Assembly (NCBI RefSeq): GCF_003330765.1
Contig: NZ_CP024902.1
Coordinates: forward strand, 2,480,001-2,544,000
Direction of reading: 5' to 3'
DNA from: Burkholderia pyrrocinia
GTDB lineage: Bacteria; Pseudomonadota; Gammaproteobacteria; Burkholderiales; Burkholderiaceae
Length of the DNA stretch: 64,000 bases
The position numbers were made by a program, and so were the translations under genes. Shown one piece after another: positions 1,341 to 31,035 of this stretch; the stretch's first letter is position 1; each line of letters begins with the position of its first letter. The notes below the pieces were generated by a model. It did no database searches. It was not told the DNA's origin and saw only the letters and a program-made list of their open reading frames with translations.

Positions 1341-1368
1341 GTTTCCTCCGGATAACGGTGCCACACGC

Positions 1369-2706: not shown

Positions 2707-2718
2707 GATCGGCCTCTT

Positions 2719-3525
2719 TCAGTCGACGTCGGATGCGGCCGGCGACGACATCGCGCCGCCGGCCGCATGAATGCGATGCGTCATGCGCGCGCGGCACGCC
2801 GCACCGAATGCCGCGAAGATGTCGCGCGACAGCGGCTGCTCCGCGTAGCGCCATTCGGGATGCCACTGCACGCCGAGCGCGAACGCGCGCGCGCCGAGCA
2901 CGCTGACGGCCTCGACCAGTCCGTCGGGCGCGCTGGCTTCGACGACAAGCCCCGCGCCGACACGCGCGATGCCCTGGTCGTGCAGCGAATTGACCGTTGC
3001 CTCGTGCGCGCCGCGCGCGACCCGCTGCAGCAGGCCGCCCGGCGCGAGCTGCACGACGTGCGCGGGGCCGTACTGCCGTTCGAGCGGATCGGCCGGCCGT
3101 TCGCGATGGTCGTCGAAGCCGGTCGTCGCATGCAGCCGCTGATGCAGCGTGCCGCCGTAGGCGACGTTCAGCTCCTGCATGCCGCGGCAGATCGCGAGCA
3201 CGGGCACGCCCGCGTCGATCGCCGCGCGGATCAGCGGCAGCGCGGTCGCATCGCGCGCGGGATCGTGCAGCGTGTCGGGCTCGCTCGCGGCGCCGCCGTA
3301 ATGGTGCGGCTCGACGTTCGAATAGCTGCCGGTAAACAGCAGCCCGTCGACCGCCGCGACGATCGCGTCGGCCGGCTGGCGCGCACCCAGCGCGGGCAGC
3401 ACGAACGCAAGCGCGCCGGCGCCGTCGACGAGCGCGGCAAGGTACTTCTCGCCCGCCGTGTGGTTCGGATGCGCACCGCGCAGGATGCGGTCGGCGGTGA
3501 CGGCTACGATCGGGCGCGCACGCAT
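2719..3525 (-). CDS. puuD: Gamma-glutamyl-GABA hydrolase (class I glutamine amidotransferase fold)
   Basis: Predicted hydrolase releasing GABA and glutamate from gamma-glutamyl-GABA, the last step of the gamma-glutamylated putrescine route. The 268-residue protein has a class I amidotransferase triad: Cys113 in AICRGMQELN, and His222 and Glu224 in GVQWHPEW. It carries no synthase domain, as expected for PuuD/SpuA. It is the first gene of the minus-strand spu/puu operon. The middle oxidation enzymes (PuuB/PuuC) are not visible and may lie beyond base 1 or elsewhere. The start at 3525 has a weak GAAGAGA ribosome-binding sequence. Confidence 0.83.
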   Translation of the reverse strand: MRARPIVAVTADRILRGAHPNHTAGEKYLAALVDGAGALAFVLPALGARQPADAIVAAVDGLLFTGSYSNVEPHHYGGAASEPDTLHDPARDATALPLIRAAIDAGVPVLAICRGMQELNVAYGGTLHQRLHATTGFDDHRERPADPLERQYGPAHVVQLAPGGLLQRVARGAHEATVNSLHDQGIARVGAGLVVEASAPDGLVEAVSVLGARAFALGVQWHPEWRYAEQPLSRDIFAAFGAACRARMTHRIHAAGGAMSSPAASDVD

Positions 3526-4125
3526 GGGCGTCTCTTCGGTAATCGCGCGCGGAACGCTCGCGCGCGGAACGATGAAGGTCCGCGGTTGCGCCGCACGCGC
3601 ACATCGCGACGCGACGCATGCGCGATCCTGCCGCGCGGACGATGCGGCAACAGGTAGTGCGGCCCGGAACGGAAGCGGAAAAGGACGCTAGGGCAACAAG
3701 GATGCGCTGCCGTCGCACTGCACCGCGCTGAACACGTGCGCGGCAATGAGGTTGAAGCGGCGCAGGCCGCGATGGGAAATGGCGAAGAAACGAGGCTCGC
3801 GTAAAGGGGCGGCACGCGCGCCGCGATCAGCGTGCCGGATCGGCCCGGCCTGAGGCGGCGCGCCCGCCGACGGACTTCGCGTCCGGCGTATCGAAGGGCT
3901 GGCGGCTTTCACGATCGTACTCGACTGACTGATGGAGGCAGGACACGTGTCGCAATGCCGCTCGGCGACACGTCAGCAAGAGGTCTCGCAACGGATTCCG
4001 GCGCGGTGCGGCCATGATCGATGGCCTCGCCGCCGGTGCGCGCGTGACGACTTCCTGACATTCAGCTTATATCACCTAAAAATTGCGTCAAATTTTCAGG
4101 TGCCGATGACGACATCGATCAGACG
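3526..4125. other. 600-base region without a convincing gene, upstream of the putrescine operon
   Basis: No reading frame here has credible protein content; the open frames are arginine/proline-rich GC artefacts and mutually overlapping. The part nearest 4050-4102 is clearly more AT-rich and holds a dyad plus a minus-strand promoter-like sequence, described separately. If that promoter drives the putrescine operon, most of this stretch would be a leader of roughly 520 bases. It could also carry an unannotated RNA. I see no riboswitch I recognise. Confidence 0.5.
4050..4102 (-). promoter_or_regulatory. Imperfect dyad overlapping a minus-strand promoter-like sequence
   Basis: Bases 4073-4102 form an imperfect 30-bp palindrome with arms CACCTAAAAATT and AATTTTCAGGTG around a short centre. 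Reading the minus strand, a TTTGACG-like -35 lies inside the dyad and TATAAG, a near-consensus -10, follows at about 4067-4072. A regulator bound here would cover the promoter. The nearest downstream minus-strand gene is puuD, 550 bases away. The strand and promoter role are inferred. Confidence 0.45.
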
Positions 4126-6485: not shown

Positions 6486-7709
6486 CTATCCATTCATGCG
6501 ACGAAACACGGTCGTGCCGCCGCGTACGACCTGCTCGCACAGCGGCCGGCCGATCCAGTAGGCGAGTTCCGACAGCGAGCCGACCGACCACGCGGCGAAG
6601 TCGGCCTGGCGACCGACCTCGAGCGCGCCGTGGCGATCCGCGCGGCCGAGCGCCGCGGCCGCATGGCGCGTGACGCCCTGCAGCACCTCGGGCACCGTCA
6701 TGCGGAACAGCGTGCAGCCGAGGTTCAACGTCAGCAGCAGCGATTCGAGCGGCGACGTGCCGGGGTTGTGATCGGTCGCGAGCGCGATCGGCACGCCGTG
6801 CTTGCGCAGCAGCTCGATCGGCGGCAATTGCGTTTCGCGGATGAAGTAGTACGCGCCGGGCAGCAACACGGCGACCGTACCGGCCGCCTTCATGGCCTCG
6901 ATGCCCGCTTCATCGAGAAATTCGAGGTGATCGGCGGACAGCGCGCGGTAGCGCGCGGCAAGCGCCGTGCCGCCCGCGTTCGACAGTTGCTCCGCATGCA
7001 GCTTCACGGGCAGCCCGCGCCGCGTCGCGGCCTCGAACACGCGCTCGGTCTGCGCGAGCGAAAAGCCGATGCGTTCGCAGAACACGTCGACCGCGTCGAC
7101 GAGGCCCTCGTCGGCCAGCGCCGGCAGCATCCGCTCGCACACTTCGTCGATATACGCGTCGGCACGGCCCGCATATTCGGGCGGCAGCGCATGCGCGCCG
7201 AGGAAGGTCGTGTAGACCGTGACCGGGAAGCGCTCGCCGAGCTGGCGCGCCACGCGCAGCATCTTGCGCTCGCTCGCGAGGTCGAGCCCGTAGCCCGACT
7301 TGATCTCGATCGCGGTCACGCCTTCGGCGAGCAGCGGCTGCAGGCGCGCGGCGGCCTGCACGAACAGCGTCGTCTCGTCGGCCGCGCGCGTCGCACGCAC
7401 CGTCGACACGATACCGCCGCCCTGCCGCGCGATTTCCTCGTAGCTGACGCCCGCGAGGCGCTGCGCGAATTCGTCGGCACGCGTGCCGCCGTACACGAGG
7501 TGCGTATGGCAGTCGACGAGGCCCGGCGTCACCCACGCGCCGTGCAGATCCTCGCGCTGCCAGTGCGCATAACCGTGCGGCAGCGCGGACAACGTGCCGA
7601 GCCAGACGATCGTGCCGGTTTCGTCGACGGCGATCGCCGCGTCGTCGATCGTCTCGTCGGGATGGCCGTGCGGACACAGCCTCAGGTGATGCCAGACAGT
7701 CGGTTTCAT
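6486..7709 (-). CDS. hutI: Imidazolonepropionase
   Basis: Opens the ring of 4-imidazolone-5-propionate to N-formimidoyl-glutamate, the third step of histidine breakdown. Metal-dependent amidohydrolase of 407 residues, full family length. It shows [17 protein letters not shown] near residue 70, KLHAEQLSN in the middle and the ATDHNPGT motif near residue 320. Tightly packed in the operon: 4 bases after hutD and 4 before hutF. Confidence 0.95.
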
Positions 7710-7713
7710 GCGT

Positions 7714-8337
7714 TCAGTCTCGTTCGCCGATGGCGAGCGATACGGCGAGCAGCGCGCCGCTACCGCTCACGACGACGTCAAACGCACGCTGCGGCCCGTC
7801 GAGCCGCAGCGTGTCCATTTCTTCCAGTGCGTAACGTGCACCGTCGATCGCGATCTCGACCGTGCCGGCCGCGCAGAACAGCAGCACGGTGTCAGCCCGC
7901 TCGATGCGGTGCGCGCCTGCGCGCCACACGTCGAGCGCCCCGTGCGCGGTCGAGCGGCGCGTCATCAGGTTGAAGTCGCGCGTCGCGCCGTCGTGCAGCG
8001 TCGCGTCGATCGCCGTTTCGCCCGCGAAATCCGCGCGGGCCAGCGGTGCGTCGAGCACGTGGCGCGCGCCGCCTTCCTCGGCGAGCGTCATGCCCGCGCC
8101 GGACAGCAGCACGAGCGTGCGATCGATCCCGTCGAAACGCGAGAACGGCCCGGCCGTGCCGACGTCTGCGACGCTCACGCGCCACGCGAATGCGTCGAGC
8201 GCGGCACCGGGCGGGAACGCGCCGATCTCGCGCGTCACGCCGCCGCCGTTCTTCCACGGCGACGCGACGAGATCCGCTGCGCGGATCAGCGCGGCGGCCA
8301 GCGTCGCGTTCACCGGCGCCTGGTCGAGCGCCGTCAT
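7714..8337 (-). CDS. hutD: HutD family cupin protein of histidine utilisation
   Basis: HutD proteins are cupin-fold proteins found in many proteobacterial hut operons. In Pseudomonas they affect growth on histidine, with a proposed role in limiting hut expression. The 207-residue protein begins [10 protein letters not shown] and carries the family stretch [13 protein letters not shown]. The start is the ATG at 8335-8337, two bases past the hutU stop; the longer open frame upstream overlaps hutU and is not used. The biochemical activity is not known. Confidence 0.85.
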
Positions 8338-8339
8338 GC

Positions 8340-10028
8340 TCAGCGGCCGAGCATCGGCAGCTTCAGGCCGGCTTCGCGGGCCGTCTGCTGCGCGAGTTCG
8401 TAGCCGGCATCCGCATGGCGCATCACGCCCGTCGCCGGGTCGTTCAGCAGCACGCGGCCGAGACGCTCGTGCGCTTCGGCGGTACCGTCGGCGACGATCA
8501 CGACGCCCGAGTGTTGCGAGAAGCCCATGCCGACGCCGCCGCCATGGTGCAGCGACACCCACGATGCGCCGCCTGCCGTGTTCAGCAGTGCGTTCAGCAG
8601 CGGCCAGTCGCTGACGGCATCCGAACCGTCCTTCATCGATTCCGTCTCGCGGTTCGGGCTCGCGACCGAACCCGTGTCGAGGTGGTCGCGGCCGATCACG
8701 ATCGGCGCCTTCAGTTCGCCGTTCTTGACCATCTCGTTGAATGCCTGACCGAGGCGGTAGCGATCCTTCACGCCAACCCAGCAGATCCGTGCCGGCAGGC
8801 CCTGGAACGCGATCCGCTCACGTGCCATGTCGAGCCAGTTGTGCAGGTGCGGATCGTCGGGGATCAGCTCCTTCACCTTCTGGTCGGTCTTGTAGATGTC
8901 TTCCGGATCGCCCGACAGCGCAACCCAGCGGAACGGGCCCTTGCCTTCGCAGAACAACGGACGGATGTACGCCGGCACGAAGCCCGGGAAATCGAACGCG
9001 TTCTCGACGCCCATTTCCAGCGCCATCTGGCGGATGTTGTTGCCGTAGTCGAGCGTCGCCGCGCCGCGTTCCTGCAGCGCCAGCATCGCGCGCACCTGGA
9101 CGGCCATCGACTGCTTCGCGACCTTCACGATGCTTTGCGGATCGACCTTCTGCGCCTCGCGCCATTGCGCGACGGTCCAGCCTTGCGGCAGGTAGCCGTT
9201 GATCGGGTCGTGCGCGCTCGTCTGGTCGGTCACGCAGTCCGGCGTGACGCCGCGCTTGACGAATTCCGCGAACACGTCGGCCGCGTTGCCGAGCAGGCCG
9301 ATCGACACCGGCTTGCCCGTGCGCTTCGCTTCCTCGATCATGCCGAGCGCTTCGTCGATGGTCGTCGCCTTCTTGTCGACATAGCGGGTCTTCAGGCGGA
9401 AATCGATGCGCGTCTCGTCGCATTCGACCGCGATCATCGAGAAGCCGGCCATCGTCGCGGCGAGCGGTTGCGCGCCGCCCATCCCGCCGAGGCCGCCCGT
9501 CAGGATCCAGCGGCCCGACGGATCGCCGTTGAAATGCTGGTTCGCGACCGAGAAGAAGGTTTCGTAGGTGCCCTGCACGATGCCCTGGCTGCCGATGTAG
9601 ATCCAGCTGCCGGCCGTCATCTGGCCGTACATCATCAGGCCCTTGCGATCGAGTTCGTGGAAATGATCCCAGTTCGCCCAGTGCGGCACGAGGTTCGAGT
9701 TCGCGAGCAGCACGCGCGGCGCATCCTTGTGCGTGCGGAACACACCGACCGGCTTGCCCGATTGAATCAGCAGCGTCTCGTTCTCTTCGAGGTCCTTCAG
9801 CGACGCGAGGATCTGGTCATAGCATTCCCAGTTGCGCGCCGCGCGGCCGATGCCGCCGTACACGACGAGCGCATGCGGGTGCTCGGCGACTTCCGGATCC
9901 AGGTTGTTCTGGAGCATCCGGTAGGCCGCTTCGGCCAGCCAGGTCTTGCAGGTCTTCTCGCTGCCGCGCGGCGCGCGGATCGTGCGCGTCGGATCGAGAC
10001 GGGGATCGATGTGTTTCGGATGGTTCAT
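8340..10028 (-). CDS. hutU: Urocanate hydratase
   Basis: Adds water to urocanate to give 4-imidazolone-5-propionate, using tightly bound NAD+ as electrophile. The 562-residue length is typical. Recognisable family blocks are [16 protein letters not shown], the [19 protein letters not shown]-binding stretch near residue 175, the conserved [14 protein letters not shown], and [16 protein letters not shown] near the C terminus. It sits between hutC (39 bases upstream) and hutD in the same transcript. Confidence 0.97.
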
Positions 10029-19754: not shown

Positions 19755-19799
19755 TTAGTCCATTCCGACGATTCTCCGCCGCGTGCGCCGGCCTACGCT
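19755..19799 (+). promoter_or_regulatory. Putative activator site and -10 before the SRPBCC/NTF2-like pair
   Basis: TTAGTCCATTCCGACGA (19755-19771) matches the 17-mer at the cysD/DUF1214 divergent promoter in 14 positions. A -10-like TACGCT follows at 19794-19799, giving an estimated start near 19806 and placing the dyad centre close to -42. The leader before the ATG at 19949 would be about 140 bases. Confidence 0.6.
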
Positions 19800-19948
19800 C
19801 GATGTCGGGTACACCGCGATGCGCGGCACGTGCCGTGCCGATACCGGCACCCCCAACCATACGCGCCGGCCAATGCTGGCGCGGACCCTTCCGACCGCTG
19901 CGGCGCCCGGCACCCGGGCGCGCTCGCAGCCTCACCCGATACGCCGCC

Positions 19949-20428
19949 ATGACCAAACCCTCGAATCTCGTCACCTCGATCACCGTCGACATCGACGCGC
20001 CGGCCTCCGTCGTCTGGGAAGTGCTGACCGACTTCCCGCGCTACGGCGAATGGAACACGTTTTGCGTCGGCTTCGAAACGACCGGCAAGCTCGGCGATTT
20101 CGTGCACATGCAGGTTCGCATTCCGGGCACGGAGACCGTGATTCCCGTCAGCGAGATTCTCGTCGCCTGCGAGCCCGAGCGCCTGCTGTCGTGGGAGCAG
20201 CGCCCGACCGACGACAACAAGGACGCCGCGCGCCGCGACCAGTACATCGACGCCGACGGCGCCGAGCGCTGCCGCTATGTCACGACCGACCAGTTCCTCG
20301 GCGTCAACGCGGACACGATCATGCAGCACCACGGTGCGTGGGTGAAACAGGGCTTCGACCAGTGCGCGCGCGACGTGAAGCAGCGCGCCGAAGCGCTGCA
20401 TGCGGCGCGCCGGCGCAACAGCGCGTGA
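19949..20428 (+). CDS. SRPBCC-fold (polyketide cyclase/START-like) protein
   Basis: 159-residue single-domain protein with the helix-grip fold signature IDAPASVVWEVLTDFPRYGEWNTF at its N terminus, and the late WVKQGFDQCARDVKQR helix. Members bind hydrophobic ligands in an internal cavity. Some are cyclases, most are of unknown role. The start is the ATG at 19949. It is followed after 13 bases by an NTF2-like gene and preceded by the motif shared with the sulfotransferase locus, so I infer a ligand-binding or isomerising role on the same substrate. No catalytic residues can be assigned. Confidence 0.75.
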   Translation: MTKPSNLVTSITVDIDAPASVVWEVLTDFPRYGEWNTFCVGFETTGKLGDFVHMQVRIPGTETVIPVSEILVACEPERLLSWEQRPTDDNKDAARRDQYIDADGAERCRYVTTDQFLGVNADTIMQHHGAWVKQGFDQCARDVKQRAEALHAARRRNSA

Positions 20429-20441
20429 CCGGGAGCGGCCG

Positions 20442-20894
20442 ATGCCCGATCTGCAAACGCTCTCCGACCATCACGACATCCGCGAACTGATCGTCGCGTA
20501 TTCGAGTGCGATCGATACGCGCGACTTCGACGCGCTCGATGCGGTGTTCACGCCCGATGCGGCGATCGACTATCGCGCGATGGGCGGCATCGCCGGCCGC
20601 TATCCGGACGTGAAGGCCTGGCTGCGCACCGTGCTGCCGCAGTTTCCGCAGTACCAGCACATGGTCGGCAACCTGTCGGTCCGGCTCGACGGCGATACCG
20701 CGCGCGGCCGCACGATCTGCTTCAATCCGATGGAAATCGCGCTGCCGGACGGCGGCACGCAGGTGATGTTTCTCGGGCTGTGGTACGTCGACCGGCTCGT
20801 GCGCACCGCGCAGGGCTGGCGCATCGCCGAGCGCGTCGAGGAGCGCTGTTACGGCCACAACGTGCCGGCCGTACTCGCGGGCGCGACCGGCTGA
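20442..20894 (+). CDS. SnoaL/NTF2-like small-cavity protein
   Basis: 150-residue cone-shaped alpha+beta barrel protein of the SnoaL-like (NTF2 superfamily) type. Features are the N-terminal helices HHDIRELIVAYSSAIDTRDFDALDAVFTPDAAIDY and the strands FLGLWYVDRLVRTAQGWRIAERVEER. Relatives include steroid isomerases, dehydratases and ring-hydroxylating dioxygenase small subunits, as well as inactive ligand binders. The start at 20442 is 13 bases after the SRPBCC stop, so the two form an operon. It faces the DHH gene tail to tail. Function not assigned. Confidence 0.75.
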   Translation: MPDLQTLSDHHDIRELIVAYSSAIDTRDFDALDAVFTPDAAIDYRAMGGIAGRYPDVKAWLRTVLPQFPQYQHMVGNLSVRLDGDTARGRTICFNPMEIALPDGGTQVMFLGLWYVDRLVRTAQGWRIAERVEERCYGHNVPAVLAGATG

Positions 20895-20957
20895 TCCGGC
20901 CGCGACGCGCGCGCCGTGCCATGGCGGCACGGCGCGCGCGTCGCCAATATCGTTTCG

Positions 20958-21938
20958 TCAATCGAGCCGGAACGCCGCCTCGAAACGCGCGACGAACGCG
21001 TCGAACTCGGCTTCCGGCAGATGGTTGATGCCGCCCGCGCGCTTGCGCCCGCCGCCGGTCGGAAAGCCGCGGCAGAACTCGTCGGCGCCGAGCGGCCGGC
21101 CGTCGGGCACGCGCACGCTGACGACGAGCCCGCCGTCCGCGCGCGGCGACAGCACCGCGAGCGCCGCATGCGGCGCGTTGCGCATCCGCTCGTTTGCGAG
21201 CATGCCCGTCGCGCGCCGCGCCCACGGATGATCGGGCATCCGTACCAGCGTCGCGCCCGGCACCTCGCGCAGCGGCGCGAGCGCGCATGCGCGCGCCATG
21301 TCATCGCGGTAGCCGTCGCGCAGCGCGGCGAACACGGCGGTCTCGCGCACGAAATCGAGCGGATCGACGCATGGCAACATCGCGTCGGCGAGCGCCGCCG
21401 GATCGAAGTGCAGATCGCCGACGCAATCGCCGTACGCGTTGTAGTTCAGGTAGAGCCCGAGTTCAGCGAGCGTGCCACGCTCGGCCTCGTCGATCCCGTG
21501 CTTGCGCGCGAGCGCGCCGCCGAGCGCCGGCAGTTCATCGCCGAATGCCGCGACGATCGCCCAGCGCACGTGCCGGCCGCCGAGATAGCGGTCCACGAGC
21601 ACGCTCGTGCAGACGTCGGCCGCCGTGTCGATATGCGTATCGAAGCGCGGATCGTCGGGCAGCTCGCCGGCGAAGTGATGGTCGAAATAGCGGACCGTCG
21701 CGCCGCTGCGCAGCAGCCGCGCGCACGCGTCGCGGTTCTGGTCGTGCGACACGTCGAGCACGGTGACGATGTCGCCTGCCCGCGCGTCGATCCGCTCGAG
21801 CAGCTTGATGTCGCGCTTCACGCCGGTCACGAGCGTGCCGCGCCCGCCCTCCGCGAGCCGCAGTTGCTGGAGCGCGCACAGGCCGTCCGCGTCGCCGTTG
21901 AACGCGAAGAAATGCCGCGTGTGTGGGTTGTCCTGCAT
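20958..21938 (-). CDS. DHH-family phosphoesterase
   Basis: 326-residue member of the DHH superfamily of Mn-dependent phosphoesterases. Motif I is NGDADG (residues 14-19), the second Asp is in VLDVSHD, the signature YFDHHF gives DHH at 86-88, and motif IV is in IDTAADVCTS. A DHHA1-type GGGRKRAGG substrate loop lies near residue 300. Relatives include nanoRNases and pAp phosphatases (NrnA). It starts 17 bases after the SDR gene and closes the operon that contains a sulfotransferase. A role in removing 3',5'-pAp, the by-product of sulfotransfer, is my inference. Confidence 0.8.
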   Translation of the reverse strand: MQDNPHTRHFFAFNGDADGLCALQQLRLAEGGRGTLVTGVKRDIKLLERIDARAGDIVTVLDVSHDQNRDACARLLRSGATVRYFDHHFAGELPDDPRFDTHIDTAADVCTSVLVDRYLGGRHVRWAIVAAFGDELPALGGALARKHGIDEAERGTLAELGLYLNYNAYGDCVGDLHFDPAALADAMLPCVDPLDFVRETAVFAALRDGYRDDMARACALAPLREVPGATLVRMPDHPWARRATGMLANERMRNAPHAALAVLSPRADGGLVVSVRVPDGRPLGADEFCRGFPTGGGRKRAGGINHLPEAEFDAFVARFEAAFRLD

Positions 21939-21955
21939 GATCCGTTACTCCATCG

Positions 21956-22747
21956 TCAAGGCATGAAATCGCCGCCGTTCGCGTCGAGCGTCGCGCCCGT
22001 CACCGCGTTCGCATAGTCCGACGCGAGGAACAGCGCCGCGCGCGCGCAATCGTCGTCGGTCGGCAGCTTCGCGAGCGCGATGTTCGACGCGATCGGCGCG
22101 ATGATCTGCTCCTCCGTCATCCCGTATTCGTCCGCCGCCTGGCGGAAATACGTCTGCGTCGGCACGCCCCACATCCAGCCCATGTGGATGCTGTTCGCGC
22201 GAATACCGTGCACGCCGAGTTCGCGCGCCAGGTATTTTGCCGCAACGGCGAGCGCCCCCTTCGATACAGCGTAGCCGGCTTCCCCTGCAAAAGGCTTGCG
22301 GGTCGCCTGCGTGTTGATCATCACGATCGCGCCACGCTGCTGCCGCTTCATGTGCGGCACGACTTCCTGCGTGAGCGCCATCGTGCCGAACACGTTGGTG
22401 TCGAACACCGTGCGCCAGCCGTCGAGGTCGGCTTCGTCCACCGGCTCCGGAAACGTGCCGTGCACGAACGCGCTGTTCACGAGCGCGTCGATCCGGCCGA
22501 AGCGCTCGACGGCCTGCGTCGCGAGCTGCCGGCATTGCGTGCGATCGGTGATGTCGGTCTTCATCTTCAGCACGTCGCAATCGACGCCAAGTTCGCGGAT
22601 CCGTGCTTCGGCGTCGTCGAGCTTTTCCATCGTGCGCGCCGCGACGACCACGCCGCGTGCGCCCTCGCGCGCGGCCTCGACGGCGAGCTTCACGCCGAGC
22701 CCCGGCCCGATCCCGGAAATCACGATGATCTTGTCCTTCAGCAACAT
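21956..22747 (-). CDS. Short-chain dehydrogenase/reductase
   Basis: Classical SDR of 263 residues, NAD(P)-dependent oxidoreductase acting on alcohol/carbonyl groups. The nucleotide-binding glycine motif is SGIGPGLG (variant of TGxxxGxG). The catalytic Tyr/Lys are in AGYAVSKGAL, and the C-terminal signature is TGATLDANGGDF. The aspartate-rich LKMKTDITDR segment follows strand 3. The start is the ATG at 22745-22747. Between the sulfotransferase (41 bases) and DHH gene (17 bases) in one operon, it probably interconverts the hydroxyl/keto group of the molecule being sulfonated. Confidence 0.85.
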   Translation of the reverse strand: MLLKDKIIVISGIGPGLGVKLAVEAAREGARGVVVAARTMEKLDDAEARIRELGVDCDVLKMKTDITDRTQCRQLATQAVERFGRIDALVNSAFVHGTFPEPVDEADLDGWRTVFDTNVFGTMALTQEVVPHMKRQQRGAIVMINTQATRKPFAGEAGYAVSKGALAVAAKYLARELGVHGIRANSIHMGWMWGVPTQTYFRQAADEYGMTEEQIIAPIASNIALAKLPTDDDCARAALFLASDYANAVTGATLDANGGDFMP

Positions 22748-22788
22748 GGGTTGTCTCCTGGTTGTCGTTCGTCTCGCGGGCGCCGCCG

Positions 22789-23982
22789 TCAACCGGCCGC
22801 CCGCAGATGCCGCGCGCGATACGCGGCGAAGTCGCGCGCGAGCTGCGCATCGGTGAAGCCGAAGCGTGCGATCGAATAGTCGTGCGCGGCGCGCTTGTCG
22901 CGGCCGTTGCGCGCCATCCAGTCCGTCATCGCCGCGCGCTGCCGCGCATCGAGCGGCATGCCGGCGAAACCGTACACGGCCTCCACGACGCCGAGCGGAT
23001 TCGAGACGGTGTCCTCGAAACGCACGTCGAGGAACCGGTCGGCCGGCAGCGCGTCGCGCGCCGTCATCGCCGCGCCGATCGCGCGCGCCATTCCCGCGCT
23101 CCACTGCGCGCCGACGGCGAGCGGATCCGGATCGTCCGCATACATCTGCCACAACGTGTGCGCCATGCTCGCCATCGACGGAATCGTCTGCGCCGGATCG
23201 CGGTGCGTGAGCACGACCTGCGCGCGCGGAAACACGCAGCACAACACGTCGAGCGCATGCAGGTGCTGCGGCGTCTTCAGCAGCCAGCGCTCGGCCGGCG
23301 CGACGCCGCGCCGCGCCTTCTGCCACTGCAGGAACTGCAGCATGCGCTTCAGGTACGTGTAGACCGGCGTGAGATCCTGCTTCGCGAGCCACGCCGTATA
23401 GCCCGGCACGTTCGCGTAAGAATCCATCGCGCACACGAACGCGTGCTCCATCAGCATGAACTCCTCGTCGGCGAGCATCGCGTCTAGCGGATGGATCGTC
23501 AGGATCTGCGGAATGCAGTCGATCATCATCGCGACCTCGGCCTGCGCGCGCGCGATGCGCACGGTCGGCGCGTCGAGCGTCTCGCCGGCGAGCGGCGCCG
23601 GGTAGCGCGTTTCCCACCACGCGGCCGAATGAAAGCGCGGGTCGACGGCCAGCAGCCGCTGCAGCAGCGTCGTGCCCGTGCGCGGCAGGCCGACGATCAC
23701 GAGCGGATCGTCGATCGCGATGTCCGCGATCTCCGGATGACGCCGGAAGTAATCCTCGACGACGAGCCGGTTCACGAGCTGGCCGACGAGCTTCTCGCGC
23801 ATCATCGCCGCGCCGCGCGCGGACAGCTTCGCTTCGTCGATCAGCGACGCGCACATCACGTCGAGCGCCTCGCGATACGGCCCGTCGCCGAACGCGTTGA
23901 GCCCGCCCGTGCGTGACACGGCCTCGGCAATCAGCCCGTCGGCGTCAAGCAGCGTGCGGATCGAGTCGAGCGGTGCGTTCAT
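22789..23982 (-). CDS. PAPS-dependent sulfotransferase (Sulfotransfer_3 type)
   Basis: Predicted to move the sulfuryl group of PAPS to a hydroxyl or amine of a small molecule. 397 residues. The 5'-phosphosulfate-binding loop is VIVGLPRTGTTLL (about 95-107). The 3'-phosphate-binding segment is VVLTHRDPAQTIPSMASM (about 257-273), with LLKTPQHL between. The family resembles bacterial and mycobacterial Stf-type enzymes. Its start overlaps the DUF1214-like gene as ATGA (23979-23982). Divergently transcribed cysD-cysNC would supply PAPS. The acceptor is unknown. Confidence 0.85.
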   Translation of the reverse strand: MNAPLDSIRTLLDADGLIAEAVSRTGGLNAFGDGPYREALDVMCASLIDEAKLSARGAAMMREKLVGQLVNRLVVEDYFRRHPEIADIAIDDPLVIVGLPRTGTTLLQRLLAVDPRFHSAAWWETRYPAPLAGETLDAPTVRIARAQAEVAMMIDCIPQILTIHPLDAMLADEEFMLMEHAFVCAMDSYANVPGYTAWLAKQDLTPVYTYLKRMLQFLQWQKARRGVAPAERWLLKTPQHLHALDVLCCVFPRAQVVLTHRDPAQTIPSMASMAHTLWQMYADDPDPLAVGAQWSAGMARAIGAAMTARDALPADRFLDVRFEDTVSNPLGVVEAVYGFAGMPLDARQRAAMTDWMARNGRDKRAAHDYSIARFGFTDAQLARDFAAYRARHLRAAG

Positions 23983-25088
23983 ACGGCCTCCTTCAGCGTG
24001 GCGAGCTTCACGACGCGCGTGCGCGGATGCACGGGTTGCGCGGCACCGACCCAGCGCCAGCAGATCGTGCCGGTGCGATGCCCGGCCGTATCGAGCCAGT
24101 TCGCATCGCCCGGCTGCGATGCGGCGACGACCACCGTCACGCCGCCGCCGGCATTCGGCCGCGCGCTGTGCTTGTTCACGCAGATGTCGAAATGGCGGTA
24201 GTCGAGCGACTCCATCCAGTAGTTGTTGAGCTGCACGTTCCAGAAATCGCAGTTGGGCACCGTATCGACGTCGATCACGAGCGCTTCGTCGTCGGCCAGC
24301 GACCAGCACGAGTGGTAGTAGTAGATGTTCGGGTCGCCGCCGACCGACTGGCACAGCGCCTGGTCGGCGGGCGGCAGCGCGTTCACGTGCGACCGGTAGC
24401 TCGCGGCCCAGTCGGCGAACAACTTCGACGTCTGCTCGACGAACTGCGCGGCGCGCGTGAGGCCGCCCTGCAGCACGAGCGGGTCGAGCGGCGCCGGTCG
24501 GTCCTGCGCGCCGATGCGCTCGATCTTCAGTTGCGCGGGCGTCTCCGCGCGCCGGTCGAGGAAGGTCTGGCGCACCAGCAGCGCATTCGTGCCGGGCTCC
24601 ATGCGCACCCAGTTGCCGGCGCGCGGCGTTTCGCCCAGCACGATCTCGAAGCTGCCGTCCGGCGCGATCTCGAGCTGCTTCGCGTCGATAAAGCCCGTCT
24701 GCAGCATCTTGCCGTCGGTCTCGTAGCCGCCCTTCTGCGTGCCGAAGCTCAGGTACGCGACCGTGCCGCGCCGCCCCGTTACGCGGTATTCGCAGCGGCC
24801 GTCGAGGCGCGCGTACTGGTACAGGTTGTCGGGATTGTCGGCACCGATCTTCGCGGTCTCGTGCGACGGCGAGAAAAAGCCGGGCCATGCGCCGTCGGCA
24901 AACTCGACGTGCATTTCGAGCGCGATGCGCATCAGCCGGCTCAGGTAGCGGAACCCTTCCGCGCGCGTGAGCGGATCGTCCGGCGCCTCGGCGCGCAGGA
25001 TCTGTTGTCCGCTGCGTTTCAGGGTGTCGCAGAAATCGGCCCAGGTCTGGCCCGAAAGCAATTGCGTGGCACGTGTGTCGTCCGTCAT
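23979..25088 (-). CDS. DUF1214-like protein of unknown function
   Basis: 369-residue protein with no signal peptide. The C-terminal half resembles DUF1214: VPNCDFWNVQLNNYWMESLDYRH, then NWLDTAGHRTGTICWRWVG. The N-terminal part has RAEGFRYLSRLMRIALEMHVE, similar to the helical start of such proteins. These beta-rich proteins have no firm biochemical role, though they often sit near lipid or steroid metabolism genes. First gene of the sulfotransferase operon, overlapping it by 4 bases, so the products are probably made together. Its promoter shares a dyad with cysD. Confidence 0.65.
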   Translation of the reverse strand: MTDDTRATQLLSGQTWADFCDTLKRSGQQILRAEAPDDPLTRAEGFRYLSRLMRIALEMHVEFADGAWPGFFSPSHETAKIGADNPDNLYQYARLDGRCEYRVTGRRGTVAYLSFGTQKGGYETDGKMLQTGFIDAKQLEIAPDGSFEIVLGETPRAGNWVRMEPGTNALLVRQTFLDRRAETPAQLKIERIGAQDRPAPLDPLVLQGGLTRAAQFVEQTSKLFADWAASYRSHVNALPPADQALCQSVGGDPNIYYYHSCWSLADDEALVIDVDTVPNCDFWNVQLNNYWMESLDYRHFDICVNKHSARPNAGGGVTVVVAASQPGDANWLDTAGHRTGTICWRWVGAAQPVHPRTRVVKLATLKEAV

Positions 25089-25118
25089 GTGTCGTCTCCG
25101 CCGATGGTCGAGCGCTCA

Positions 25119-25235
25119 CCTTAAGCGCCGGCGCCGTGCGCCACTTCGTCCGGGTGGACTAAGGAAAGATCCGCTGCGCCGCCGCGCCGCGGTTTAGTCC
25201 ACCCGGACGAAGAGCGACATGCGCTGTGCTCGATA
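25119..25235. promoter_or_regulatory. Divergent promoter with 19-bp inverted repeat between DUF1214-like and cysD genes
   Basis: CTTCGTCCGGGTGGACTAA (25144-25162) and its exact reverse complement (25194-25212) are separated by 31 bp. Each arm is itself a dyad (TAGTCC, 4 bases, GGACGA). Reading outward, each is followed about 39-41 bases from its first T by a weak -10-like hexamer: TAAGGT on the minus strand and TACCGT on the plus strand. That puts each dyad near -42, a class II activator position. The LuxR-type protein at 28235 is the best candidate ligand. Confidence 0.7.
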
Positions 25236-25302
25236 CCGTTGGCGTCATGCACGAAACGCCGCACATGTCGCGCGGCGCCGGCATGAAACAAGGAGACGAA
25301 CG

Positions 25303-26199
25303 ATGTTGACCCACTTGGAGCGACTGGAGGCCGAAAGCATCCACATCATGCGCGAGGTGGTCGCGGAGAGCGAGAACCCGGTGATGCTGTATTCGATCGG
25401 CAAGGACAGCTCGGTCATGCTGCATCTCGCGATGAAGGCGTTCTACCCGGCGAAGCCGCCCTTTCCGCTGCTGCACGTCGATACGACCTGGAAGTTCCGC
25501 GAGATGATCGCGTTTCGCGACGAGACGGCCGCGCGCCTCGGCCTCGACCTGCGCGTGCACATCAACCCCGACGGCGTCGCGAACCACATCAACCCGTTCA
25601 CGCACGGCTCGGCCGTGCACACCGACGTGTGGAAGACCCAGGGCCTCAAGCAGGCGCTCGATCACTACGGCTTCGACGCCGCGTTCGGCGGCGCACGACG
25701 CGACGAAGAGAAGTCGCGCGCGAAGGAGCGCATCGTGTCGCTGCGCTCGGAGCAGCACCGCTGGGACCCGAAGCGCCAGCGCCCCGAACTCTGGTCGCTG
25801 TACAACGCGCGCAAGCGCAAGGGCGAAAGCCTGCGGGTGTTCCCGATCTCGAACTGGACCGAGCTGGACATCTGGCAGTACATCCAGCTTCACGCCATCC
25901 CGATCGTGCCGCTCTACTTCGCGAAGGTGCGGCCCGTCGTCGAGCGCGACGGCGCGCTGATCATGGTCGACGACGAACGCCTGCCGCTACGTGAAAGCGA
26001 AGTGCCGCAGATGCGCAAGGTGCGCTTTCGCACGCTCGGCTGCTACCCGCTGACGGGTGCGATCGACAGCGACGCGACGTCGCTCGACGACATCCTGCAG
26101 GAGATGCGCGAGACGCGCACGTCCGAGCGCCAGGGGCGGCTGATCGACAGCGATTCGGCCGGTTCGATGGAAAAGAAGAAACAGGAGGGCTATTTCTGA
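25303..26199 (+). CDS. cysD: Sulfate adenylyltransferase subunit 2
   Basis: Catalytic subunit of ATP sulfurylase, making APS from sulfate and ATP with the GTPase CysN. 298 residues of the PAPS-reductase/ATP-pyrophosphatase fold. The PP-loop is [12 protein letters not shown] (about residue 30); [16 protein letters not shown] and the C-terminal [17 protein letters not shown] end are typical CysD. The ATG at 25303 has AAGGAG 8 bases upstream. Overlaps cysNC by one base. The divergent sulfotransferase operon, rather than sulfite reductase genes, suggests dedicated PAPS supply. Confidence 0.95.
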
Positions 26200-28115
26200 T
26201 GGCACACGTTCTCACCGCGCGCGACACGCTCGCGCGCCCCGCCCCTGCCGCGTCCGCCGCCGACGACGCGCAAACCAAGGACCTGCTGCGCTTCATCACG
26301 TGCGGCAGCGTCGACGACGGCAAGAGCACGCTGATCGGCCGCCTGCTCTACGAATCGAACCTGCTGTTCGACGACCAGCTCGCGCAGCTCGAGGCCGATT
26401 CGAAGAAGGTCGGCACGCAAGGCGGCGAACTCGATTTCGCGCTGCTCGTCGACGGCCTGTCGGCCGAACGCGAGCAAGGGATCACGATCGACGTCGCGTA
26501 CCGCTTCTTCGCAACCGCGCGGCGCAAGTTCATCGTCGCCGACACGCCCGGCCACGAGCAGTACACGCGCAACATGATCACCGGCGCGTCGACCGCCGAT
26601 CTGGCAGTCATCCTGATCGACGCGCGCAAGGGCGTGCTCACGCAGACGCGCCGCCATAGCCATCTCGTCGCGCTGATCGGCATCAAGCGCGTCGTGCTGG
26701 CGATCAACAAGATGGATCTCGTCGACTACGACCCGGCCGTGTTCGACCGCATCGATGCCGACTATCGCGCATTCGCGGCCGAACTCGGGCTGCCGGAGAT
26801 CGTCAGCATCCCGATGTCGGCGCTGCGCGGCGACAACGTGATCGTGCCGAGCACGCGGATGCCGTGGTATGCGGGCCCGACGCTGATGCAGCATCTCGAC
26901 AACCTGCCGCTCGCCGCACGCGTGACGCGCGACGAGCCGTTCCGGCTGCCCGTGCAGTGGGTCAACCGCCCGCACCTGAACTTCCGCGGCTATGCGGGCA
27001 GCATCGCGTCGGGCGAGATCCGCGTCGGCGAGCGCGTGCGCGTGCTGCCGTCCGGCCAGGAGAGCCGCGTCGCGTCGGTGATCACGCAGCGCGGCGAAAG
27101 CGACATCGCGCGCGCCGGCGACGCGGTGACGCTCACGCTCGCCGACGAGATCGACATCAGCCGCGGCGACCTGATCGCGCGCGCGGACGCGCCGCCCGAA
27201 GTGGCCGACCAGTTCGAGGCGACGCTCGTGTGGATGCACGACGAGCCGCTGCTGCCCGGCCGCCCGTATCTCGTGAAACTCGGCACGCAGACGGTCGGCG
27301 CGACCTGCGCGACGCCGAAGTACAAGATCGACGTGAACACGCGCGAGCATCTCGCCGCGCGCACGCTCGCGCTCAACGAGATCGGCGTGTGCAACCTGAG
27401 CTTCGACCGGCCCGTCGCGTTCGATCCGTACGACCGGAACCGCCATACGGGCGGCTTCATCGTGATCGACCGCTTCACCAACGACACGATCGGCGCCGGG
27501 ATGCTGCACTTCGCGCTGCGCCGCGCGCACAACGTGCACTGGCAGGCCGTCGACGTCGATCGCGACGCGCGCGCCGTGCAGAAGGCGCAGACGCCGCGCA
27601 TCGTGTGGCTGACGGGGCTGTCGGGCGCCGGCAAGTCGACCATCGCGAACCTCGTCGAGAAGCGGCTGCACGCGCTCGGCAGGCACACGTACCTGCTGGA
27701 TGGCGACAACGTGCGGCACGGGCTCAATCGCGATCTCGGCTTCACCGAGGCCGATCGTGTGGAGAACATCCGGCGCGTCGCCGAAGTCGCGCGGCTGATG
27801 CTCGACGCGGGGCTCATCACGCTCGTGTCGTTCATCTCGCCGTTCCGCGCGGAGCGCGACATGGCGCGCGCGATGGTCGGCGCCGACGAGTTCGTCGAAG
27901 TGTTCGTCGACACGCCGCTCGCGATTGCCGAGGAACGCGATCCGAAGGGCCTGTACAAGAAAGCGCGGCGCGGCGAGCTGAAGCACTTCACGGGCATCGA
28001 CTCGCCGTACGAGCCGCCCGCGCAGCCCGAGCTGCGCGTCGATACGGTGGCCGAGTCGCCTGAAGAAGCGGCGGACCGCATCGTCGCGTACCTGCTGCGC
28101 GAGCGCACGGCGTAA
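26199..28115 (+). CDS. cysNC: Bifunctional sulfate adenylyltransferase GTPase subunit / APS kinase
   Basis: Fusion of CysN (GTPase that drives APS formation with CysD) and CysC (phosphorylates APS to PAPS). 638 residues. The N-terminal G domain has [15 protein letters not shown] (about 36-50), [13 protein letters not shown] and NKMD; EF-Tu-like beta-barrels follow. The APS kinase domain starts near residue 467 with the P-loop [10 protein letters not shown] and has [15 protein letters not shown]. The start overlaps the cysD stop (TGATG). PAPS is not needed if the cell reduces APS directly, so the kinase domain points to sulfotransfer. Confidence 0.95.
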
Positions 28116-28150
28116 GCGCCGCATGCGGGTTTCCCGCAAGCCCGCGTCGT

Positions 28151-28194
28151 CTACTCCGTTCGGATGACGCGGGCCGCCGGCTGGCCGGTATGCT
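28151..28194 (+). promoter_or_regulatory. Putative autoregulatory site and promoter of the LuxR-type gene
   Basis: CTACTCCGTTCGGATGA (28151-28167) agrees with the cysD/DUF1214 17-mer at 11 positions and keeps its dyad (TACTCC, 4 bases, GGATGA). TATGCT, a good -10, is at 28189-28194, the same spacing as at the other three promoters. It predicts a start near 28201, and makes 28235 the likely translation start. Confidence 0.55.
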
Positions 28195-28234
28195 GGGTCG
28201 GGAACCCTTCATCCCGACCCAGGAGAACACGAGC

Positions 28235-29422
28235 ATGCAGATCGCGCTGGCGCCCGGCGACACGGCCACGCACGACGGTTTCGACGACGCCGCGTGGACG
28301 GCGCGCGAACTCAGCGCGTGGCTCGGGCTCGTCTATCAGGGCCCGTCGGAAGCGACCCCGTGGGCCGGCTTTCTCGAAGCGGTCCGCGTGCGGCTCGACG
28401 CGAGCTTCACGACGCTCGTGCTGCGCAATCCGGGCGGCTCGCGGCACGGGCTCATCATCAACGCATCGACGCACGGCCCGCTGCTGCCCGGCGAGCCGTC
28501 GTACAGCGAGCAGTTCTATGCGCTGTGCCCGTTTCTCGACCACCCGCCCGGCCAGGTCTTCACGGCCGACCGGCTGTTCGGCGAAACTGCGTGGCGCGCG
28601 CACGATTTCTACCGGCAGTACCTGCAGCCGCTCGACCTGCGCTACATCCTCGGCGCGAACCTGCGCGGCGAACGCGGCGTCGAGTGCGCGTTCTTCGTGA
28701 GCCGTGCGCACGGCGGCCGCGATTTCGACGCGGCCGAACGCGCGCAGGTCGCGACGCTGCTGCCGCACCTGCAGCGGGCAGTCGAGCTGCACGCGGCGTT
28801 CGACGTGCTCGATGCCGAACGCGCGCTGTACGCGGGCACCGTCGACCGGCTCGATGTCGGCACCGCGATCGTCGACGAGGACGGCCGCGTGATCAAGCGC
28901 AACCGCATCGCCGAGCGGCTGATCGAGCAGCAGGACGGGCTGTGCGTGCGCCAGGAGCGGCTCCACGCGTCGTGCCCGCTCGACGAGCGCCGGCTGCAGA
29001 AGGCGCTGCAGGCCGCGCTCGAGCATTTCCGTGCGGGCGCGCTCGTGCGCATCGAAGCCACCACGCTGTCGCGCCCCGGCGGCGCGATGCCGTTGAGCGT
29101 GCTGCTGCGACCGCTCGCGCCCTACCGCGGCGCCGAGGATCGCCAGCATCGGCCGGCCGTCGCGGTGTTCGTCCGCGATCCGACGGCGTCGCCGCAGACG
29201 TCGCGCGACATGCTGCACCGGCTGTTCCGGCTCACGCCGATGGAGACCGAAATCGCGCTGCTGCTCGTCGACGGGCTGACGCTCGACGAGGCGGCCACCG
29301 CGACCGGCATCACGAAGAACACCGCGCGCGCGCACCTGCGCGGCATCTTCGCGAAAACGGGCGCGACGCGGCAGGCCGTGCTCGTGAAGACGCTGCTCAA
29401 CAGCGTCGTGTCGATGGCGTAG
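28235..29422 (+). CDS. LuxR-type transcriptional regulator, candidate activator of the sulfonation locus
   Basis: 395-residue regulator. The last 65 residues form a LuxR/GerE helix-turn-helix: FRLTPMETEIALLLVDGLTLDEAATATGITKNTARAHLRGIFAKTGATRQAVLVK. The large N-terminal region has no receiver domain or obvious autoinducer-binding motif; it may be PAS/GAF-like and sense a small molecule. I chose the ATG at 28235 because AGGAG lies at 28221-28225 and the predicted promoter would exclude the start at 28190. It lies 119 bases after cysNC on the same strand, with its own promoter. Confidence 0.85.
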   Translation: MQIALAPGDTATHDGFDDAAWTARELSAWLGLVYQGPSEATPWAGFLEAVRVRLDASFTTLVLRNPGGSRHGLIINASTHGPLLPGEPSYSEQFYALCPFLDHPPGQVFTADRLFGETAWRAHDFYRQYLQPLDLRYILGANLRGERGVECAFFVSRAHGGRDFDAAERAQVATLLPHLQRAVELHAAFDVLDAERALYAGTVDRLDVGTAIVDEDGRVIKRNRIAERLIEQQDGLCVRQERLHASCPLDERRLQKALQAALEHFRAGALVRIEATTLSRPGGAMPLSVLLRPLAPYRGAEDRQHRPAVAVFVRDPTASPQTSRDMLHRLFRLTPMETEIALLLVDGLTLDEAATATGITKNTARAHLRGIFAKTGATRQAVLVKTLLNSVVSMA

Positions 29423-29667: not shown

Positions 29668-31035
29668 TTGAACCCGCCCTCGCCCGCCCTGCCCGGACGC
29701 GACCCGCTCGCGTCCGCCGTCTCGAAAGTGAAGTGGCATGTATTGCCGCTCGTGCTGATCATGTTCATCGCGAACTACATCGACCGCGTGAACGTCGGTT
29801 TCGTCGATCGCCACCTCGAAGCGTCGATCGGCATCGGCGCGGCCGCATACGGGCTCGGCGCCGGGCTGTTCTTCGTTGGCTATGCGCTGTTCGAAGTGCC
29901 GTCGAACCTGCTGATGCAGCGCTACGGCGCACGCGTGTGGCTCGCGCGAATCATGGCGACCTGGGGCATCGTCGCGGCCGCGATGGCGTTCGTGTGGAAC
30001 GACACGTCGTTCTACGCGCTGCGCTTCCTGCTCGGCGTGGCCGAGGCCGGCTTCTTCCCCGGCGTCGTGCTGTACCTGTCGCAATGGCTGCCGCCGCAGG
30101 AGCGCGGCAAGGCGATGGCGATCTTCCTCGGCGGCTCCGCGTTCGCATCGGTGCTGTCCGGGCCCGTCACCGGCGCGCTGCTGTCGATCCGCGGCTTCGG
30201 CCTCGAAGGCTGGCAATGGATGTTCCTGATCGAAGGGTTGTTCTCGGTCGCGCTGTGCGGTGCGAGCTGGCTGCTGCTGAAATCGCATATCCGCGACGCG
30301 ACGTGGCTCACGGCCGACGAACGCGCGGCGCTCGAAACGGCGCTCGACGCGGAACGCGCGACGCGCGACGTGCGCTCGAACGTGCCCGTGCGCGCCACGG
30401 CGCTGCTGCGCGATCCGCAGATCATGCTGTTCTGCTTCCTGTATTTCTCGATCCAGTTGACGATCTACGCGGCCACGTTCTGGCTGCCGACGATCATCCG
30501 CAAGATGGGCGGCCTCACCGATTTCCAGGTCGGCCTGTACAACACGATTCCGTGGATGATCGCGATCGGCGCGATGTACTGCTTCGCGGTGCTGTCGTCG
30601 AAGTGGAAGCATCCGCAACGCTGGCTCGCGTTCGCGCTCGTGCTCGCCGCATGCGGGCTGTTCGCGTCGACGTCGCACGATCCCGTGTGGTCGTTCGCGT
30701 CGATCTGCTTCGCCGCGCTGGGCTTCAAGGCCGCGTCGTCGCTGTTCTGGCCGATCCCGCAGGGCTACCTCGACACGCGCGTGGCCGCGGCCGTGATCGC
30801 GCTGATCAACTCGGTCGGCAACCTCGGCGGCTTCGTTGCGCCGACGGCATTCGGCTATCTGAAGCAACATACTGGTTCGATCACAGGCGGGCTGTATGCG
30901 CTCGCGATCGCTTCCCTCGTCGCCGCGGTCGCCGCGCTGTTCGCACGCACGCACCGGCGCAGCGATCCGCCGCGCGGCCTGCCGGCCGACGAGTCCTTCA
31001 CGAACGCTTCGATGCTCCGCCATGCCGAACACTGA
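29668..31035 (+). CDS. MFS transporter, anion:cation symporter (ACS) type
   Basis: Inner-membrane carrier of 455 residues, about 12 helices. The N-terminal FIANYIDRVNVGFVDRHLE and LSQWLPPQERGKAMAIFL are hallmarks of the ACS family (tartrate, galactonate, phthalate and hexuronate carriers). The start is TTG at 29668 with GGAG 6 bases upstream; no ATG fits. Its end overlaps the following lactonase-fold gene by 14 bases, so they are co-translated. Together they suggest uptake and lactone hydrolysis of a sugar acid or aromatic lactone; the compound is unknown. Confidence 0.85.
   Translation: MNPPSPALPGRDPLASAVSKVKWHVLPLVLIMFIANYIDRVNVGFVDRHLEASIGIGAAAYGLGAGLFFVGYALFEVPSNLLMQRYGARVWLARIMATWGIVAAAMAFVWNDTSFYALRFLLGVAEAGFFPGVVLYLSQWLPPQERGKAMAIFLGGSAFASVLSGPVTGALLSIRGFGLEGWQWMFLIEGLFSVALCGASWLLLKSHIRDATWLTADERAALETALDAERATRDVRSNVPVRATALLRDPQIMLFCFLYFSIQLTIYAATFWLPTIIRKMGGLTDFQVGLYNTIPWMIAIGAMYCFAVLSSKWKHPQRWLAFALVLAACGLFASTSHDPVWSFASICFAALGFKAASSLFWPIPQGYLDTRVAAAVIALINSVGNLGGFVAPTAFGYLKQHTGSITGGLYALAIASLVAAVAALFARTHRRSDPPRGLPADESFTNASMLRHAEH

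Follow-up and report, generated by a model that had tools for sequence, protein, structure and literature searches.

We analyzed a 64,000-nucleotide window (C1:2480001-2544000) of the 8.0-Mb, three-contig genome of Burkholderia pyrrocinia, in which genes for sulfate activation lie divergent from the operon of a predicted sulfotransferase (ST); we call this gene set the cassette. Pfam and NCBIfam profile scans took in ten proteins at 19.9-31.0 kb of the window. The gene list of a preliminary description of this DNA proved correct, every named gene being present with an open frame and in the layout stated. On the minus strand, the gene of a DUF1214-type protein (23979..25088; PF06742, 35.3 bits, cut-off 25) overlaps the ST gene (22789..23982) by 4 bases, and genes coding a short-chain dehydrogenase/reductase (SDR) of the PRK07890 type (21956..22747; NF005909, 354 bits, cut-off 258) and a DHH-DHHA1 phosphoesterase (20958..21938) follow after gaps of 41 and 17 bases. 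Because of this overlap and spacing, the four genes look like a single operon, of which the DHH gene is the final one. It diverges from the plus-strand genes cysD, cysNC (a cysN-cysC fusion), and a LuxR-type regulator gene, and genes coding an SRPBCC protein and a SnoaL protein are located at the far end.

The plus-strand genes include a complete set for the supply of 3ʹ-phosphoadenosine 5ʹ-phosphosulfate (PAPS). CysD, the ATP sulfurylase small subunit (25303..26199; NF009214, 573 bits, cut-off 413), and the CysN part of the fusion, the large subunit (26199..28115; NF004035, 1060 bits, cut-off 715), were above cut-off, as was the adenosine 5ʹ-phosphosulfate (APS) kinase domain (PF01583); the two genes overlap by one base. 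A further pair of PAPS_reduct genes, beside a separate CysN, was found elsewhere in the genome (C1:2844478-2847485). Judging from the gene order, these are probably the ordinary assimilatory genes, and the cysD of the cassette would be a second copy. The PAPS supply of the cassette duplicates the housekeeping set and consists of its own activation genes linked to an ST. Two more APS kinases were present in the same genome (G000:C1:845463-845912 and C2:988735-989181).

The ST passed the curated cut-off of Sulfotransfer_3 (PF13469, 142.4 bits against 27, 3.3e-41), and it is the sole match to PF13469 and the sole match to PF00685 in the genome. Its nearest relatives among named records were from Burkholderia. 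The residues of a GLPRTGTT loop and an HR...S motif, which we take to be the PAPS-binding loop and the 3ʹ-phosphate motif, were kept in 11 sequences from several taxa, with G98, R101, G103, T105, R261, and S269 invariant at identities down to 32%. If the enzyme acts like other members of its family, the reaction would strictly be a sulfation, yielding a sulfate ester and not a C- or N-sulfonate.

We compared 65 genomes of the genus. The ST was found in 34, its gene being divided between two frames in G025. These same 34 genomes had a cysNC with at least 88% identity; the 31 others all lacked it and had just the ordinary CysN at about 51% (Fisher 3e-19, relatedness ignored). Twenty of the 34 carriers were fetched for gene order, and all kept the order phr-SRPBCC-(SnoaL)-DHH-SDR-ST-DUF1214-cysD-cysNC-LuxR-MFS, except that SnoaL was present in only 15, LuxR was displaced in L060, and edge genes went unobserved in a few; the LuxR gene itself was found in all 20. 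In 20 non-carriers, DHH of at least 80% identity stood without the cassette, and ST, cysD, cysNC, and LuxR were gone. Thirteen of these sites retained fragments of SDR, SnoaL, SRPBCC, or DUF1214 (one, L067, a nearly full SDR), and the ends of the deletions differed among them, so the block was lost, probably many times; a rough local tree gave 14 changes. The SRPBCC/SnoaL pair, although on the far side of DHH, was lost together with the block. The gene of a major facilitator superfamily (MFS) transporter adjoining the LuxR gene (29668-31035) was present at 17 of the 20 non-carrier sites, thus it probably lies outside the cassette.

Beyond the genus, a rearranged cassette recurred in Pseudomonas, Cupriavidus, Ralstonia, Comamonas, and others; strains of Cupriavidus necator, Pseudomonas protegens, and Comamonas testosteroni were among its bearers (L150, L155, L170, and L158). 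Two layouts were seen among 80 loci of named genomes, in 67 of which cysNC was inside the fetched flank. In type I, found in Burkholderia, Paraburkholderia, Cupriavidus, Ralstonia, Collimonas, and part of Pseudomonas, the supply and ST operons are divergent and accompanied by DHH and a LuxR-type gene. In type II, found in Comamonas, Aromatoleum, Halopseudomonas, and other Pseudomonas, cysD-cysNC-DUF1214-ST-SRPBCC-SDR are co-directional and accompanied by CysQ, with an EthD gene in 16 of 20 loci. The content was retained despite the rearrangement, suggesting selection to stay together. On a Tsukamurella plasmid, cysD and cysNC diverge from DUF1214-SDR-ST with an IclR-type regulator in between; this was the only full core among five plasmid records opened out of 52 that matched.

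We also made a pattern-free check on 20 stretches, from 16 of the 20 genomes of the family outside the genus that had the ST (leaving aside G229, G259, G268, and G273) and from four genomes of the class. In 11 of them cysD, cysNC, DUF1214, ST, SDR, and DHH occurred all together. Both cysD and cysNC were absent from L199 and from L208-L210, the latter three having DHH, DUF1214, ST, and SDR; in L212-L214 DUF1214 adjoined the ST without supply genes, with SDR also in L213 and L214, and L215 had an ST region alone within a long frame. Similar sulfotransferase regions within long frames, besides that of L215 (G463:C21), were H26, H27, and H34 in Planktothrix plasmids, the Planktothrix ones being annotated as polyketide synthase. 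In L211 (G321:C9:4490500-4508500; 210-3967 and 7281-9613, the cysNC matches overlapping in pieces), cysD-cysNC-DHH stood in a row in one direction with a diverged ST (31%) and DUF1214 (30%), as if the acceptor module had been exchanged and the supply module retained. Overall, the neighbours did not vary freely within the genus, across genera, or, for the core, on one plasmid of another phylum, in agreement with the earlier proposal of a self-contained sulfonation locus; the cassette is real, widely shared, and self-contained.

Removal of 3ʹ-phosphoadenosine 5ʹ-phosphate (pAp), the toxic by-product of sulfotransfer, had been named in the preliminary description as a possible function of the locus. 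No Pfam or NCBIfam model matched the DHH protein at 1e-3. Its assignment to the DHH family is based on the motif residues D16, D18, D62, D86-H87-H88, and D134, which were invariant in 30 sequences, and on a predicted model with the RecJ/NrnA fold along the full length, which resembles a proven pAp phosphatase and also RecJ. Among the 67 cysNC loci, 43 had only DHH, 20 had only CysQ, a known pAp phosphatase, one had both, and three had neither; the CysQ in the locus with both was a distant homologue. One positional swap of DHH and CysQ was seen, in L168. Outside the genus, DHH was tightly linked to the ST, and the only CysQ match in the genome of the window was under cut-off. The mutual exclusion with CysQ, the positional swap, and the predicted fold give strong indirect support to the DHH protein as the enzyme concerned, and they suggest that pAp removal by it is very probably built into the cassette. 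A second DHH subfamily, 45-52% identical to that of the cassette, was found in 28 of 238 genomes outside the genus without the ST.

The remaining genes of the minus-strand operon and those at its far end are candidates for handling the acceptor. The DUF1214 protein is a near-orthologue of the solved structure 6ans (E 1e-205, 93% identity over 362 residues), and the solved DUF1214 structures were deposited without assigned function. A full-length DUF1214 match accompanied the ST in all 80 named-genome loci, and a relative of 33% identity did so in Tsukamurella. This association, and the divergence of both proteins in L211 while supply genes and DHH were conserved, suggests that DUF1214 belongs on the acceptor side. 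SDR gave a full-length match in 78 of the 80 loci, in one of them (L189) with merely 27% identity. The SRPBCC protein (Polyketide_cyc2, 159 aa, ATG at 19949; 19949..20428, plus strand; PF10604, 44.5 bits, cut-off 27.4) was coded in all 20 fetched carriers, and its full gene was found at none of the 20 non-carrier sites, two of which had fragments. The SnoaL_4/NTF2-like gene (20442..20894, plus strand; PF13577, 110.6 bits) is an optional member, since five of the 20 fetched carriers lacked it. Genes of the meta-cleavage lower pathway, not every gene in each, were located near DUF1214-ST-SDR in L177, L178, L183, and L185; of the representatives scanned, acetaldehyde dehydrogenase (L178) and hydroxy-oxovalerate aldolase (L185) were above cut-off, and oxopentenoate hydratase and an HsaD-like hydrolase (L183) were below it. 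These neighbours hint at an aromatic or steroid-like acceptor, and no more; the acceptor would be small and probably hydrophobic. The preliminary description further proposed that SDR, SRPBCC, and NTF2-like proteins would shape this metabolite; of these, the SnoaL gene is dispensable. In loci of the Nevskiaceae/Solimonas type, another DUF1214 gene was located downstream of the DUF1214-ST-SDR group (L179:12771-13871, L186:12034-13140, and L188:13091-14191).

The divergent promoter (25148..25208) holds GTCCGGGTGGACTAA and TTAGTCCACCCGGAC, with paired dyads GTCCGGGTGGAC at 25148-25159 and GTCCACCCGGAC at 25197-25208 and a GTCC-to-GTCC distance of 49 bases. In 30 of the 34 carriers (all but G003, G029, G030, and G047), an exact dyad pair was located between the positions of cysNC and the ST; three of the 31 non-carriers matched the pattern, solely at GTCCC repeats elsewhere. 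A reversed control pattern was matched in 22 of the 65 genomes, therefore it is the location and sequence of the dyads, not their mere presence, that count as evidence. Among the 80 named-genome loci, which are related to each other, 43 of the 45 that have the cluster LuxR showed GTCCN4GGAC in the 300 bases upstream of DUF1214, as did 6 of the 35 that lack this regulator (3 of the 20 CysQ loci), against a background of 48 in 4815 windows. The LuxR-type protein (28190 or, more likely, 28235..29422, plus strand; GerE 19.2 bits, under the 23.5 cut-off) may act at these paired sites. Another dyad, TCCGTTCGGA (ten bases, 28155..28164), lies 5ʹ of the LuxR gene; of 11 Burkholderia loci, 10 had the same bases there, as had none of the other loci listed. 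It is possibly, as a weak candidate, a site of the same regulator. GTCCC-type spaced GTCC...GGAC repeats, which look like another site array, were found off the cassette on C1, C4, or C6 of G008, G012, G013, G026, G036, and G043.

We propose, with a probability of roughly 0.78, that the locus is a dedicated sulfation cassette whose predicted activities close a nucleotide loop. Sulfate and ATP would be converted to APS by CysD together with the CysN part, and the CysC part would phosphorylate APS to PAPS. The Sulfotransfer_3 enzyme would then transfer the sulfuryl group to a hydroxyl group on a single, specific acceptor, a small organic molecule, giving a sulfate ester and leaving pAp. The DHH protein (CysQ in type II loci) would hydrolyse pAp to AMP, relieving product inhibition. 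SDR and DUF1214, together with SRPBCC and sometimes SnoaL or EthD, would make, hold, or finish the acceptor, and the LuxR-type protein would switch the divergent operons through the paired GTCCN4GGAC sites.

Several observations weigh against this proposal. The more distant relatives in Nevskia, Solimonas, and Sinimarinibacterium keep DUF1214-ST-SDR with no cysNC, DHH, or CysQ in the fetched flank, which shows that the supply genes can be dispensed with. In the fold comparison, RecJ nucleases equalled or outscored the pAp phosphatase, so the fold alone gives no specificity for pAp, and the split between DHH and CysQ goes back to a small number of evolutionary changes, roughly two on the ST tree. 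DHH was also present in 24 of the 31 genus genomes without the ST, with an identity of at least 80% in 20, and in the fetched stretches of L128, L183, L185, L199, and L208-L210 it stood without cysNC; 21 of those 31 genomes have no PF13469 sulfotransferase whatever. Where DHH persists without an ST, it must be a remnant or have another task. The DHH protein could be a nanoRNase or RecJ-like nuclease that is in the operon by chance, pAp being cleared by another enzyme. We consider this unlikely given the exclusion with CysQ and the swap in L168, the contiguous cysD-cysNC-DHH run in L211, the tight linkage to the ST outside the genus, and the sub-threshold CysQ match in the genome of the window.

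Other explanations concern the role of the ST. CysD and CysN are assimilatory by family, and the locus might serve sulfur storage or cysteine supply, in which case the second CysD-CysNC would be a reserve for assimilation, with the ST as a passenger. This is very improbable, because the genome has the separate CysN and PAPS_reduct pair, the ten scanned proteins included no PAPS or sulfite reductase save CysD, which is of the same fold family, and cysNC was kept or lost with the ST (34 of 34 versus 0 of 31). The ST might instead modify a cell-surface polymer, lipid, or peptide as NodH or RaxST does, and both RaxST and the sulfation of Nod factors are indeed known to have a dedicated PAPS supply (PMC4216712). 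No glycosyltransferase, secretion, or peptide gene was found among the ten scanned proteins, however, and four relatives lie near the meta-cleavage genes. The partners are of SDR, SRPBCC, SnoaL, and EthD types, families typical of small-molecule pathways, and a surface acceptor appears doubtful. Finally, sulfate could be a temporary leaving group, an unreactive alcohol being sulfated and then subjected to elimination or cyclisation by SRPBCC/SnoaL to give a sulfur-free end product. Cyclases and eliminating enzymes do occur among SRPBCC and NTF2-fold enzymes, and SRPBCC was kept and lost together with the ST, but it was not found in the fetched flank of several Cupriavidus loci and SnoaL is optional; we give this explanation little credence.

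If the dedicated-cassette reading is correct, a sulfated small molecule is predicted to be common to Burkholderia, Cupriavidus, Ralstonia, Comamonas, and Pseudomonas, and the cassette provides a genetic handle on it; to our knowledge, few sulfated small molecules have come from soil Pseudomonadota. Bacteria would have, in the DHH proteins, a candidate pAp phosphatase family that is not related to CysQ, and DUF1214 would gain a functional context. More tentatively, the cassette may represent an undescribed portable pathway common to Pseudomonadota and Actinomycetota, in which the PAPS supply is built in, DHH and CysQ can replace each other as pAp phosphatases, and a conserved core of DUF1214, SDR, and ST acts on a single metabolite. 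DUF1214 would then be indispensable to the core, either by presenting the acceptor or through a reaction in which sulfate is the leaving group.

Parts of the cassette resemble known proteins. The nearest solved sequences to the ST profile were PDB 2zq5 (E 1.5e-65) and 2z6v (E 9e-53), both deposited as uncharacterised, which we take to be mycobacterial STF-type sulfotransferases; Rv3529c-Rv3531c is presumably a comparable group of ST, SDR, and partner. PMC6429209 does no more than list the latter genes in a table of cholesterol-catabolism genes. MtPAPP, the DHH-family pAp phosphatase of Methanothermococcus, has 10% identity to the cassette DHH, whose Asn14 is probably at the place of MtPAPP His6, judging from the motif order; MtPAPP serves sulfate reduction, whereas the cassette DHH is proposed to serve a sulfotransferase.

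As a whole, the cassette resembles the rhizobial NodPQ-NodH system of Nod factor sulfation, in which a second set of ATP sulfurylase and APS kinase feeds one sulfotransferase and NodQ is likewise a fused CysN-CysC. It differs in having SDR, DUF1214, and SRPBCC as acceptor module instead of lipo-chitooligosaccharide genes, in its ST, which scored only 18.5 bits against NoeE, the one nodulation ST model that it matched (cut-off 500), and in its built-in candidate for a pAp phosphatase. Neither nodABC nor raxX-raxAB acceptor or export genes were among the ten scanned proteins. Xanthomonas RaxP/RaxQ, of the system for tyrosine sulfation of RaxX, is a PAPS-making pair for the specific sulfotransferase RaxST (PMC4216712), which is thought to be peptide-directed and sits with the raxA/raxB secretion genes (PMC4216712 and PMC6637879). 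There, too, PAPS-making genes serve a specific sulfotransferase, but in the cassette the supply and transfer genes are adjacent. The cassette would work by analogy with NodPQ-NodH or RaxPQ-RaxST, but with a different ST and a different acceptor module.
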